A stretch of DNA of 64,000 nt, from assembly GCA_019084245.1 (NCBI GenBank), contig JAHRFE010000033.1, positions 62,001 through 126,000 of the forward strand, read 5' to 3'. Every line of letters begins with the position of its first letter. Within the stretch, counting starts at the first letter, position 1. Position numbers and translations under genes: made by a program. The notes under the pieces were generated by a model. That model had not been told where the DNA came from and ran no database searches. It was given only the letters and a program-made list of their open reading frames with translations. This stretch comes from Hoeflea sp. Its GTDB lineage: Bacteria; Pseudomonadota; Alphaproteobacteria; Rhizobiales; Rhizobiaceae. Positions 17,290 to 54,956 of this stretch are shown here, in pieces.

Positions 17290-19158
17290 CTATTCCGCCG
17301 CCGTCGCATCTTCCGCAGCCGACGCATCGGTCTCGGCATCGATGAAGCCGCCCGATTGCCGTGACCAGAGGTCGGCATAGATGCCGCCCGACTTGATCAG
17401 CTCCTCATGGGTCCCGGTTTCCACGATCTCGCCCTGATCCAGCACCACCAGCCGGTCCATCTGCGCGATCGTCGACAGCCGGTGCGCAATCGCAATCACC
17501 GTCTTGTTCTCCATCAGCGCAAACAGGTTTTCCTGGATCGCCGCCTCGACTTCCGAATCGAGCGCCGAGGTGGCCTCGTCGAGCACCAGGATCGGCGCAT
17601 CCTTGAGGAACACCCGCGCAATGGCGATGCGCTGGCGCTGGCCGCCCGACAGCTTGACGCCGCGCTCGCCGACATGGGCGTCGAGCCCGGTGCGACCGAC
17701 CAGATCCTCGAGGCCGGCGATGAACTCGAGCGCATTGGCCTTGCGCGCCGCCTCGATGATCTCGGCCTCCGTGGCGTCGGGACGTCCATAGGCGATGTTG
17801 TCGCGCACGGAGCGGTGCAAGAGCGACGTGTCCTGGCTCACCATGCCCACCTGTCCCCTGAGGCTATCCTGGCTCACCTGCGCGATGTCGTGACCATCGA
17901 TCAGGATGCGCCCGGATTCGAGATTGTAGAACCTGAGCAGCAGGTTGACGATCGTGGTCTTGCCGGCGCCGGAGCGGCCGACCAGGCCGATCTTCTCGCC
18001 CGGCTTGATCGACAGCGACAGGTTCTCGATCACGCCGCTCTGCTTGCCGTAATGAAAGCGGACATTCTCGAAACTGATCGCACCCTTTTTGGCGACGATG
18101 TCGCCGGCGCCGGGGCGGTCAACCACGTCGTGCGGCTTTATCATCATGCCCATGCCGTCCTGGACCACGCCGATATTCTCGAAGAAGCCGGAGACCTCCC
18201 ACATGATCCACTGCGACATGCCGTTGATTCTCAGCGAAAGCCCGATGACCACGGCAATGGCGCCGACCGAGACAAGACCGTTCAGCCAGAAGCCGATCGA
18301 CATTGCCGAAACCACGAACACCAGGACCGAATTGTTGAAATAGATCAGCGACTGGAACAGCGTCACCTGGCGCATCTGCCGGTGCACGGTCTGCAGGAAC
18401 ATATCCATGCTTTCCTGTGCATAGGCCTCTTCGCGGCCTGCGTGGGAAAACAGCTTGACCGTCGAAATATTGGTGTAGCTGTCAACCACCCGTCCCGTCA
18501 TCGCCGAGCGGGCATCGGCCTGGTCGGTCGATATCCGCTTGAGCTTCGGCACGAAATGCACGATCAGGCCGATATAGACGGCGAGCCAGAACAGCAAGGG
18601 CAGCACCAGCCGCCACTCGGCGCTCGCCACCATGCCGATCATGGCGATGAAATAGACCAGCACGTAGACGAACACATCGAGAAGCTTCATCACCGCTTCC
18701 CGGATCGACAGCGACGTCTGCATCACCTTGGTGGCGACGCGCCCCGCGAACTCGTTGGAAAAGAAGCTCAGGCTCTGACGCAGCAGGTAGCGGTGCATCT
18801 GCCAGCGCGCGATCATCGGGTAATTGCCGAGCAGCGTCTGGTGGATGATCAGCGAATGCAATGCCACCGTGACCGGCAGGCCGATGAGCACGACGGCGCC
18901 CATCAGCATTAGGCGGCCGGATTCGCGATCAAGGAAACCCCGCGGATCGGAATTGGCAAGCCAGTCGACAATGGAGCCCAGGAAGCCGAACAGCATCACT
19001 TCGCCAACTGAAATCATCGCGGTCAGGATGGCCATGGCGATCAGCCATGGCGCCGCATCACGCGAATAATGCCAGCAAAACGCCACAAGCCCTTCGGGCG
19101 GCGCGGTGGGCGTTGCCTCGGGATAGGGATTGAGTTGACGTTCAAACCATCCAAACAT
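17290..19158 (-). CDS. MsbA-type ABC exporter, first of a tandem pair
   Basis: A 622-residue half-transporter, clearly paralogous to the downstream gene. The membrane domain spans about residues 35-330. The ATPase has GLVGRSGAGKTT, LSGGQRQRIAIARVFL and DEATSALDSE. A good AGGAGA site precedes the ATG and lies in the loop of a short ATGTC/GACAT stem. A leader peptide and alternative hairpins lie in its 5' region, suggesting that expression responds to translation. The substrate is unknown; drugs or lipids are likely. Confidence 0.9.
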   Translation of the reverse strand: MFGWFERQLNPYPEATPTAPPEGLVAFCWHYSRDAAPWLIAMAILTAMISVGEVMLFGFLGSIVDWLANSDPRGFLDRESGRLMLMGAVVLIGLPVTVALHSLIIHQTLLGNYPMIARWQMHRYLLRQSLSFFSNEFAGRVATKVMQTSLSIREAVMKLLDVFVYVLVYFIAMIGMVASAEWRLVLPLLFWLAVYIGLIVHFVPKLKRISTDQADARSAMTGRVVDSYTNISTVKLFSHAGREEAYAQESMDMFLQTVHRQMRQVTLFQSLIYFNNSVLVFVVSAMSIGFWLNGLVSVGAIAVVIGLSLRINGMSQWIMWEVSGFFENIGVVQDGMGMMIKPHDVVDRPGAGDIVAKKGAISFENVRFHYGKQSGVIENLSLSIKPGEKIGLVGRSGAGKTTIVNLLLRFYNLESGRILIDGHDIAQVSQDSLRGQVGMVSQDTSLLHRSVRDNIAYGRPDATEAEIIEAARKANALEFIAGLEDLVGRTGLDAHVGERGVKLSGGQRQRIAIARVFLKDAPILVLDEATSALDSEVEAAIQENLFALMENKTVIAIAHRLSTIAQMDRLVVLDQGEIVETGTHEELIKSGGIYADLWSRQSGGFIDAETDASAAEDATAAE

Positions 19159-19249
19159 GGATGTCTCCTTGAAGAAAACGACATGCCGCGCATGGGGAAA
19201 TGCACTGGCAGACCGAACAAAAACCTGAGGTCACGCGATGACGCTTATC

Positions 19250-19307
19250 GCCCCTGAAACGGGGCACAAAAGCTGAAAAATAAGCTGAAACCGCGAAAAA
19301 CCCGTTT
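19250..19307 (-). promoter_or_regulatory. Mutually exclusive hairpins before the ABC exporters
   Basis: On the minus strand AAACGGG (19307-19301), starting 3 bases after the leader-peptide stop, can pair with CCCGTTT (19263-19257). The latter overlaps the competing hairpin GCCCC-loop-GGGGC (19265-19261 with 19254-19250). The two folds exclude each other. No T run follows, so control may act on translation or Rho. Confidence 0.4.
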
Positions 19308-19309
19308 AA

Positions 19310-19357
19310 TCAGTGGCCTAGGGCCGCAGCCGGAGGACAGATATCAATGATGCGCAT
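19310..19357 (-). CDS. Candidate regulatory leader peptide of the ABC exporter pair
   Basis: A 15-codon frame encoding MRIIDICPPAAALGH, with a strong GAAGGAGG Shine-Dalgarno at ideal spacing and its stop 151 bases before the exporter gene. It has a Pro-Pro pair followed by Ala-Ala-Ala, a type of sequence that can slow ribosomes, and a rare-type CTA Leu codon near its end. The frame stays open upstream, but only this start has a ribosome site. Not a known leader to me; inferred from layout. Confidence 0.45.
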   Translation of the reverse strand: MRIIDICPPAAALGH

Positions 19358-19499
19358 TGCAGCCTCCTTCGGGTTCGCGTTGAAGATCACCCTGTTTAGA
19401 CCCAAATCCGCAGTTCCGCCAGATTGTCGCACCCGGTTTGCGCAGCGGAGGTGCATCCTTGCTTGATATTGTGATAAAAACACCACAGACATTGTCACC

Positions 19500-19967
19500 A
19501 TGACCAAACCTCTCATCGCGCTCTACCAACCCGACATCCCCGGCAACACCGGCTCGATCCTGCGGCTCGGCGCCTGCATGGGCATCGGCATTCACATCAT
19601 CGGGCCCGCGGGCTTCGACATGACCGACAGGGCGCTCAAGCGCGCCGGGATGGATTACATCGAGATGGCGGCGCTGACCCGCCACGACGGCTGGGAAGAG
19701 TTCGAGGCCTGGCGGCAGGCCGGAGCCCGGCGGCTGGTGCTGATGACGACGCAATCCGCCACGCCCTATGTCGATGACACGGTCCAGACCCTCACCGCCC
19801 AGGACGTCGTCCTGTTCGGAAGGGAGAGCGCAGGCGTGCCGCCGAAAGTGCATGAGGCGGCCGATGCGCGGCTGACGATCCCGATGATCAACGGTCGCCG
19901 CAGCTTGAACCTCGCCATGAGCGTGGCGATCATCGCCGGCGAGATCAACCGCCGCTTCGGGCTGTAG
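19500..19967 (+). CDS. trmL: tRNA (cytidine(34)-2'-O)-methyltransferase
   Basis: A 155-residue SPOUT methyltransferase that modifies the wobble base of leucine tRNAs. It shows the N-terminal YQPDIPGNTGSILRL, the cofactor knot VVLFGRESAGVP, and SLNLAMSVAII near the C-terminus. The length is normal for the family. Confidence 0.95.
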   Translation: MTKPLIALYQPDIPGNTGSILRLGACMGIGIHIIGPAGFDMTDRALKRAGMDYIEMAALTRHDGWEEFEAWRQAGARRLVLMTTQSATPYVDDTVQTLTAQDVVLFGRESAGVPPKVHEAADARLTIPMINGRRSLNLAMSVAIIAGEINRRFGL

Positions 19968-25964: not shown

Positions 25965-26581
25965 AACTGCGCCTCCAGCCTGGCCATCGGCATCACCGGA
26001 AAGATCTCGCCGCCCGAGCGGATCGCGAACATTTTCTCGCCGTCAATCTCGGCCTCTTCGCCGCGCGCCAGAAGATCATAGGTCACCGCGCGGTTGACCA
26101 GCGCCTCGAGCCGCCCGCGCACCAGCAGATAGGGCTTGAGCTGATCTTGCTCGCCCGTGGTCACGAACCTGAGCGGATTGTCCGGCCCGACTCGCACCAC
26201 GTCGCCGACATTGGTCCTGAAGGTGAGCACCGGATCGCCCTCTTCTTCGGCAACACTCATCTCGACAGCCAGGAACGGCGCATCGGCAATCCGGATCCCG
26301 AGCTTTTCCACAGGCGTGACCAGATAGGTCCTTCCGTCTTCGTCGCGGCGCAAAACAGTGGAAAACAACCGCACCAGTGCGGGCCTGCCAATCGGCGTGC
26401 CCATGTAGAACCAGGTGCCGTCAGCACGGATTTCCATGTCGATATCGCCGCAATAGGGCGGATTCCAGTGCTCGACCGGCGGCAAACCATCCTTGCCGGC
26501 ATTGCGGTCGGCCTGGGCGCGCGAAATCAGCGCCGCGAGATCCGCAGCATCTGTTTTCGTGTCGGTCCTTGTTTTTGCCAT
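25961..26581 (-). CDS. DUF1285-family protein
   Basis: 206 residues with the DUF1285 pattern GDIDMEIRADGTWFYMGTPI near residue 45 and YLVTPVEKLGIRI further on. No catalytic residues are known for the family. First gene of the operon with the Nudix and cca genes, divergent from moxR; this order is common in rhizobia. Confidence 0.85.
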   Translation of the reverse strand: MAKTRTDTKTDAADLAALISRAQADRNAGKDGLPPVEHWNPPYCGDIDMEIRADGTWFYMGTPIGRPALVRLFSTVLRRDEDGRTYLVTPVEKLGIRIADAPFLAVEMSVAEEEGDPVLTFRTNVGDVVRVGPDNPLRFVTTGEQDQLKPYLLVRGRLEALVNRAVTYDLLARGEEAEIDGEKMFAIRSGGEIFPVMPMARLEAQL

Positions 26582-54268: not shown

Positions 54269-54704
54269 GGAATATCTTTCGAAGTTTTGGGCATACGTCG
54301 GGGGCGTGCGCCTCAGCGCCGCCAATCGCGGATCATGCCCGATCACAAATGGTCCCCTGGCTGCGGACGAACCGCAATCGGGGGAGTTCGGGTTGGGCGC
54401 ATCGCCGCTGGCCGACGCGAAAATTCAAGGGTGGACGTCAGGGGAAGTCAGAACACGCTAATCAACGAAGACGCGTGCAGCGGCCGATTGGCCCCTATCC
54501 AGTTGCCGTCCTTAGGCCTGATAATTGCGGCCTTGTCAAGGCGGAAGGACCATTTCCTGCCGCAGCGCAGCAAACAGGCTTAACGTCGTGACCGGCAGCC
54601 GCGCCAAGCAACTCGCTCCCGATTGTGGTGCAAGACCCGACCTGCGCCGCAAACCGTCGTATTTTCAGATTGCTATCCCGTGTGCCGCGAAATAATCTCA
54701 GGCG
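54269..54704. other. Intergenic region before the B12 riboswitch
   Basis: About 435 bases between the helicase start and the riboswitch. No credible gene or RNA recognised. It must hold the promoters of both divergent units, but no clear -35/-10 pair stood out. Confidence 0.5.
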
Positions 54705-54890
54705 GTTCGGGTTCCATGAAGACCAAGCCTTCGGGATTAAAGGGGAACACGGTAGGGATGACCTGAAAAAGGGCCCGATCCGTGGCTGCCCTCGCAACTG
54801 TGAGCGTGAGCCGCATCCATGATGCCACTGAGTCAGACCGGGAAGGCGGATGACGGTGATGAAGCGCGAGCCAGGAGACCTGCCCGGACT
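54705..54890 (+). promoter_or_regulatory. Cobalamin riboswitch
   Basis: Conserved elements in order: GGGGAACACGGT, CTCGCAACTGTGAGCG, GATGCCACTG, CGGGAAGGC, and the B12 box GCGCGAGCCAGGAGACCTGCC split at 54864-54884 (21 bases, core GAGCCAGGAGACC). It lies 67 bases before a CbiM-like gene, which should be repressed when B12 is ample. Boundaries are approximate. Confidence 0.93.
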
Positions 54891-54956
54891 ATGGCAGCCG
54901 CAGTCGCGGCGTCCAACTCCAACCTCTTGCACGATGGGTGCAGAAAGGGCTTTGAC

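Follow-up and report, generated by a model that had tools for sequence, protein, structure and literature searches.

A conserved leader RNA with a short reading frame precedes an ABC exporter pair in Hoeflea sp. and related Rhizobiaceae

In a stretch of 64,000 nucleotides from Hoeflea sp. (contig JAHRFE010000033.1, hereafter the window), an ABC exporter gene pair is preceded by a short leader that probably acts in cis as an upstream open reading frame (uORF) attenuator, reading the translation status via its RNA and not via its peptide. Most likely, this leader lets the cell turn on the pumps when protein synthesis falters. The preliminary description of this DNA had recognized the layout of a translation-sensing attenuator; it was right in kind and gains from the conservation of the leader and from a close published parallel (PMC12218461), but it went wrong in the role given to the peptide sequence (pN/pS 0.76).

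A short leader frame ahead of an ABC exporter pair

All leader and exporter features of the window are located on the minus strand. As the preliminary description had stated, a 15-codon frame with a strong ribosome site is present ahead of the MsbA-type exporter pair. This small open reading frame (MRIIDICPPAAALGH) occupies positions 19310–19357, with the start at 19357 and the stop codon ending at 19310, and the minus-strand letters read GAAGGAGGCTGCA-ATGCGCATCATTGATATCTGTCCTCCGGCTGCGGCCCTAGGCCACTGA at this place. The sequence AAGGAGG stands 5 bases ahead of the ATG; its AGGAGG (19363–19368), as seen in the sequence, the alignment and the window folds, represents the leader Shine-Dalgarno. 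The distance from the leader ATG to the first exporter gene is 199 bases. The first gene of the pair encodes an MsbA/MdlB-type ABC exporter half of 622 amino acids (P0001, 17290–19158), preceded by its own Shine-Dalgarno AAGGAG at 19165–19170, and the second gene an exporter half of 624 amino acids (P0002, 15376–17250). Among the 25 NCBIfam families shown for each, both halves scored below all curated cut-offs.

A possible promoter at 19395–19422 would consist of CTGG (19422–19419) and TCTAAA (19400–19395). The CTGG motif was found in 48/75 leaders, compared with 20% in shuffles, mostly 63–67 bases ahead of the leader ATG; a scan for the sigma-70 consensus found nothing. Divergently to the exporter pair, a tRNA (cytidine-34-2'-O)-methyltransferase-like gene lies on the plus strand (window 19500–19967), and the same gene adjoins the exporter in S. 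meliloti Ak57 and in two further loci (L214 and L215). Elsewhere on the plus strand, the window harbors a cobalamin riboswitch (54692–54901, 103 bits).

Conservation of the frame and divergence of the peptide

For comparison, 110 orthologous loci were used, obtained as two sets of 30 (the window's own included) and 80 loci with some species in both; 109 of these were testable, as L111 has almost no upstream DNA. In 95/110 loci, a candidate frame preceded by a ribosome site was found. Leaving out the candidates at L019, L027 and L083, which look spurious, we judge the leader to be carried by 92/109 testable loci, mostly ~180–275 bases upstream of the exporter. In some loci of other genera, L159 and L160 among these, the gap amounts to 295–821 bases. 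No leader candidate was found in the Hoeflea loci L007, L011 and L034; in the aligned stretch of L034, start codon and Shine-Dalgarno are gone and a downstream block corresponding to ATCGCGTGACC of the window is still there.

The first in-frame stop codon falls at codon 12–27 in all 132 distinct sequences, compared with 8/132 and 32/132 for frames +1 and +2. A fairer test is provided by the 62 distinct relatives found by covariance model, since the 132 sequences were partly collected by frame: here, the stop falls into this range in 62/62 sequences and in 3/62 and 12/62 for the other two frames. The most frequent leader length is 18 codons (55/132), and most leaders comprise 15–22 codons.

The peptides differ by clade, being MRITDISLPLAAMGH-like in Hoeflea, MTVLMLTRLPRVAWPFQA in Sinorhizobium, MNILLIMRLPAVMPIKATWRR in Rhizobium and MEFMMTVDIHRPIRWALA in others. 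Based on 50 disjoint pairs, the pN/pS ratio of the leader was 0.76 vs 0.85–0.92 in control frames, and the amino-acid sequence appears nearly unconstrained, with a weak constraint left. The peptide end PPAAALGH, whose preservation had been named as a check, is not preserved in the aligned Hoeflea relatives. The weight formerly put on the Pro-Pro-Ala-Ala-Ala stretch is not supported in view of this ratio and because codons ~8–11 look kept for their ability to pair with the leader's own Shine-Dalgarno.

Conserved pairing within the leader RNA

The whole conserved element spans positions 19291–19382 (covariance model R1, 54 bits). Its outer stem P1 surrounds the frame, as bases immediately ahead of the Shine-Dalgarno pair with others located at the stop codon or close to it; in the window, the 5' strand CGCGAACCCG (19370–19379) lies directly upstream of the leader Shine-Dalgarno and the 3' strand CGGGTTTTTCGCG (19292–19304) directly past the leader stop codon. 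P1 reads CGCGAA/TTCGCG in Hoeflea and Pararhizobium and AACGCC/GGCGTT, AACACC/GGTGTT, CACGCA/TGCGTG, ATCGCC/GGCGAT or GCGAGA/TCTCGC elsewhere. In P2, the leader Shine-Dalgarno as the 5' strand is paired with C-rich codons ~8–11, represented in the window by the anti-Shine-Dalgarno CCTCC in codons Pro8-Pro9 (19332–19336). A possible GGCC/GGCC hairpin, P3, would be formed by the last codons of the frame (19315–19325), as suggested by the sequence and by the folds and helix lists of relatives; it was not listed for the window itself by the helix tool and comes in the relatives only from single folds and helix lists.

The P1 3' strand might have two partners. In the minimum-energy fold of the full leader, 19304–19291 is predicted to pair with 19238–19224, which makes the block ATCGCGTGACC (19229–19239) a possible alternative partner; when the 5' part was folded alone, the same stretch paired upstream of the leader Shine-Dalgarno instead. 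The alternative hairpins of the preliminary description exist on paper in these predicted folds. The ATCGCG core of the block is found in 17/20 Hoeflea-group rows and was not noted among the other clades aligned.

The seed of the covariance model consisted of 13 rows with a structure specified by us; a 34-row MAFFT seed, in which distant rows were misaligned, gave no consensus structure. In 36 model-aligned sequences (35 distinct), 93.3% of the P1 and P2 cells are paired, compared with 38–65% in slid versions of the structure. In total, 7/14 pairs are changed on both sides, with 19 double-change cells. Only 0, 2 and 0 of 500 shuffles reached values as high for paired cells, changed pairs and double-change cells, respectively, a result that is favoured because the choice of structure followed inspection of the sequences and because the alignment itself was fitted to that structure.

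The best-scoring ungapped helix starting from the leader ribosome-site region corresponds to the standard P2 in 64/83 leaders; in 72/83, the Shine-Dalgarno core can form a helix of 5 pairs or more with codons 5–14. The 19/83 leaders without P2 as top helix include the window, L036, L038 and L041 as well as six Rhizobium/Allorhizobium loci (L077, L094, L099, L100, L105 and L110). For the window, the top ungapped helix is GGCTGCA/TGCGGCC, and the GGAGG/CCTCC pairing with codons 8–9 forms in the window folds. Across 75 leaders, the median helix score of the leader Shine-Dalgarno with codons 5–16 was 17.0, compared with 11.8 at the exporter starts of the same loci and 11.0 at 29 Shine-Dalgarno-bearing ATGs of the window, which start long frames that are not all genes. 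The mean paired probability of the leader Shine-Dalgarno was 0.75 in these 75 leaders and 0.71 in the window. Per-leader helix tests gave values <0.05 for P2 in 7/75 and for P1 in 8/75 leaders, so that they are individually weak, and the pooled values come from related sequences.

Compared with dinucleotide shuffles, the element folds with a mean z of −1.39 (68/82 below zero). However, synonymous recodings fold equally well (mean z 0.03), and the folding energy of the whole element is therefore not used as evidence. The folding energy of the 222-base leader of the window (z −0.94) is unremarkable alone.

Altogether, conservation in most clades holds for the hairpins P1 and P2 but not for the peptide, which bears out one half of the conservation expected earlier; the comparison indicates that the conserved feature is the RNA, not the peptide. 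A chance arrangement is made less likely by this comparison, resting on the position of the frame, the Shine-Dalgarno, the compensatory changes and the intact frame.

Against this background, an arrest-peptide attenuator, in which a drug-bound ribosome would stall at RLP or PP near codons 8–10 and refolding would free the exporter ribosome site, appears unlikely. A Pro or basic-Leu-Pro stretch does recur near codons 8–11, the exporter target and the layout fit, and folds often show the exporter Shine-Dalgarno in a paired state. However, the peptides of the clades differ from each other (pN/pS 0.76, see above), and the RLP codons can be explained by Shine-Dalgarno pairing: L069 has RSR instead of RLP in its peptide and yet forms eight P2 pairs (GGGAGCGC/GCGCTCTC), and the Leu codon at the P2 site is CTC or CTT in 52/56 distinct peptides with the motif, whereas 56% of exporter Leu codons are CTG. 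RLP/PP as a drug-arrest motif is disfavoured, as the codons follow the Shine-Dalgarno rather than the amino acids.

Very improbable, in our view, is a ligand-binding riboswitch with a P1-P2-P3 aptamer and an incidental frame. A conserved multi-helix element followed by a varied downstream part would be in line with it, but frame length and stop codon are kept, which is unexpected without translation, and the 12-row alignment A1 has few invariant columns beyond the ATG, the Shine-Dalgarno and the stem letters. Moreover, the leader gave no Rfam match at gathering score in the window or in six further loci; a low-threshold Rfam scan of 19100–19550 yielded one snoRNA match (E 3.1) on the opposite strand.

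Distribution of the element across genomes

Over 81 loci, R1 gave 37 matches at E ≤ 1, all at the leader position and including loci outside the seed; it misses many leaders recognized by eye. The window element is the only R1 match reported in its own genome. Among 297 genomes drawn from the host family, 81 were matched by R2 (E ≤ 0.1). A total of 69 covariance-model matches (29 supplied and 40 fetched) was checked, and 63 of these lie upstream of a window-type exporter, all with an intact short frame. The remaining matches comprise L184, which is placed before a different MsbA-type exporter (exporter at 1378–2 on the minus strand, leader near 1629–1546), and five without a match to the window-type exporter.

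At the level of the order, 8/297 genomes match at E ≤ 0.01, the window included. Three of these matches (L155, L214 and L215) are located upstream of a window-type exporter, and L213, from another family, precedes a different MsbA-type exporter and has a 15-codon frame of its own, MHILMFNTPSGRSRR. L216 and L218 seem to be situated within the reading frame of a permease; the eighth match is L217. A leader of 17–18 codons was also found in 4/20 upstream stretches from other genera and families (L115, L117, L120 and L121), a sample in which one stretch has only 144 bases and the exporter start was not located in two.

Besides that, a second MsbA-type exporter, ~30% identical to that of the window, is accompanied by a strong Shine-Dalgarno and a frame of 15–31 codons in 8/8 loci (L219–L226, of which L219 is the L184 locus again). 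These frames are located 203–260 bases upstream of the matched start; their peptides are unrelated and their helices have only 4–7 pairs.

Proposed mode of action

If the leader acts as a uORF attenuator, transcription would start ~30 bases ahead of the leader ATG. Prompt ribosome loading and a run through the uORF would hold P1 and P2 open, and the C-rich codons forming the P2 3' strand, together with the untranslated spacer past the stop codon, would be exposed between ribosomes. Exposure of this RNA would cut off transcription or exporter translation, most likely with Rho. When a ribosome is kept at the start or close to it, for example by an initiation-type inhibitor such as tetracycline, or when ribosomes are absent, the C-rich codons would be covered; masked by the ribosome or by the leader's own Shine-Dalgarno, they would fail to give the off signal, and the exporter pair would be made. 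We infer the promoter, the involvement of Rho, the inducer and the direction of control from the published duf1127_1 case, from which they are carried over.

In 75 leaders, codons 7–12 have a C fraction of 0.42 and a G fraction of 0.27, compared with 0.19 and 0.18 in codons 2–6. The spacer after the uORF, where the duf1127_1 type has a second element with C over G, contains more C than G in 67/75 cases; as the median ratio is only 1.18, and 1.0 in the window, a Rho site is putative only. Terminator-like sites were found in only 2/75 spacers, which makes attenuation by an intrinsic terminator unlikely; a laxer scan gave one weak site in the window. An attenuator of amino acid biosynthesis (trpL type) was considered and rejected in view of the missing run of regulating codons and the near absence of intrinsic terminators.

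We regard as doubtful a translational control in the manner of toiL, in which masking of the exporter ribosome site by leader RNA would depend on where the uORF ribosome stands, with Rho being secondary. It keeps some plausibility because in S. meliloti Ak57 the exporter Shine-Dalgarno itself lies in a clear predicted hairpin, and a hairpin at this site, also seen by eye in L091, would suit such control. The region of the exporter Shine-Dalgarno has a mean paired probability of 0.64 over 75 loci, and toiL is reported to answer at least five antibiotic classes in that way (PMC12121999). On the other hand, the exporter-proximal sequence varies between clades, unlike P1 and P2, non-systematic inspection revealed no pairing between the uORF and the exporter Shine-Dalgarno, and the gap between leader and exporter reaches 295–821 bases in some loci.

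Possible experimental support in Sinorhizobium meliloti

In a previous study, sORF3 and sORF55 are placed upstream of SM2011_RS23660, the large gene that comes first in an ABC multidrug operon and whose rise after 10 min of tetracycline ranks within the top 30 of all genes (PMC12218461). A further study lists SEP3 as a candidate of <30 residues, which is not among the small proteins confirmed there by Western blot (PMC10117765); SEP3 is assumed here to be the product of sORF3. In S. meliloti Ak57, the leader MTVLMLTCLPRVTRPFLA matches R1 with 86.2 bits, and by the filter used, this 18-codon leader is the only candidate frame.

By tag counting, RS23660 is likely to be the S. meliloti exporter behind the leader. 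The SM2011 tags found in print (SMa2245, RS06125; nifH, RS02280; L32, RS31025) place pSymA genes first, nifH being one of them. L32 is 7365 tag units past RS23660, and in Ak57 it is 7395 units past the exporter (LZK74_33400 and LZK74_26005, respectively), which corresponds to an offset of six genes in ~1475. For a cold-shock gene, with RS25125 taken as LZK74_27575, the offset is 21 genes, or ~25 by interpolation; Ak57 has another cold-shock gene besides LZK74_27575. This counting places RS23660 within about 6–25 genes of the exporter pair. Between LZK74_25820 and 26505, the other ABC operons include one of the MCE type (26055–26070) and one beside an ArsR regulator (26340–26350), and the Ak57 gene table, which is incomplete, contains no second exporter pair in this interval. 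The tags SMc00185 and SMc00186 gave no literature match. Of note, the Ak57 sequence CP090106.1 (3.72 Mb) is filed as plasmid pSymB but looks like the chromosome under a wrong label; recA, rpmF and cytochrome bc1 genes are found on it.

Implications

As a tentative idea, the leaders may represent an RNA class found family-wide, whose uORF can hide the ribosome site from which it is translated and thereby acts as a gauge of ribosome supply for ABC exporters as a group. If true, the element's presence before the exporter pair across many genera of the GTDB family, together with similar leaders before the ~30% identical MsbA-type exporter, would tie efflux to the translation state and not to one drug. 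Independently of this idea, the exporter leader would extend the one S. meliloti mechanism in print to an RNA element that is conserved and recognizable throughout a large, much-studied family and that belongs to export pumps for which we came across no described regulator. It also makes testable whether a bacterium can switch on efflux by sensing scarce or slow ribosomes, whatever the drug.

Comparison with known systems

In the literature searched, with most subscription journals outside its scope, a description of the conserved element was not found. In the case of ermCL and msrDL, a drug-bound ribosome stalls at a specific leader-peptide motif. Like these erm and msrD leaders, the exporter leader is short and placed ahead of a resistance-type gene; unlike them, it has no conserved arrest motif. 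The S. meliloti trpL/peTrpL system likewise features a rhizobial leader peptide tied to the antibiotic response (PMC7298713), but the exporter leader lacks a codon run for a single amino acid and its peptide sequence is not conserved. In E. coli, the short uORF toiL of topAI-yjhQ is reported to answer at least five antibiotic classes via RNA structure (PMC12121999). Sensing of translation stress by a short uORF through RNA structure would be common to both; toiL, however, pairs the ribosome site of the downstream gene, whereas the conserved pairing of the exporter leader stays within the leader.

The closest parallel is found in the same bacterial family. In S. meliloti duf1127_1, C-rich codons 3–10 are the pairing partner of the uORF ribosome site; translation exposes these codons, presumably to Rho, and tetracycline or missing ribosomes mask them, which relieves attenuation, with synonymous changes revealing that the RNA matters and not the peptide (PMC12218461). 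Both leaders have a uORF near the 5' end with a ribosome site pairing its own C-rich early codons, no intrinsic terminator, and a predominance of RNA over peptide. The exporter leader has three features of the duf1127_1 type, namely own-codon pairing (not in every member), an excess of C over G in early codons and no intrinsic terminator. In contrast, the duf1127_1 uORF comprises 29 codons before a DUF1127 gene, whereas the exporter leader mostly has 15–22 codons and targets an exporter pair, and the C-rich element covers codons 7–12 instead of 3–10. An enclosing stem and a family-wide covarying element are, in the sections consulted, not described for duf1127_1. By analogy, the anatomy of the exporter leader is in line with duf1127_1-like attenuation by a uORF, the enclosing stem being an addition.
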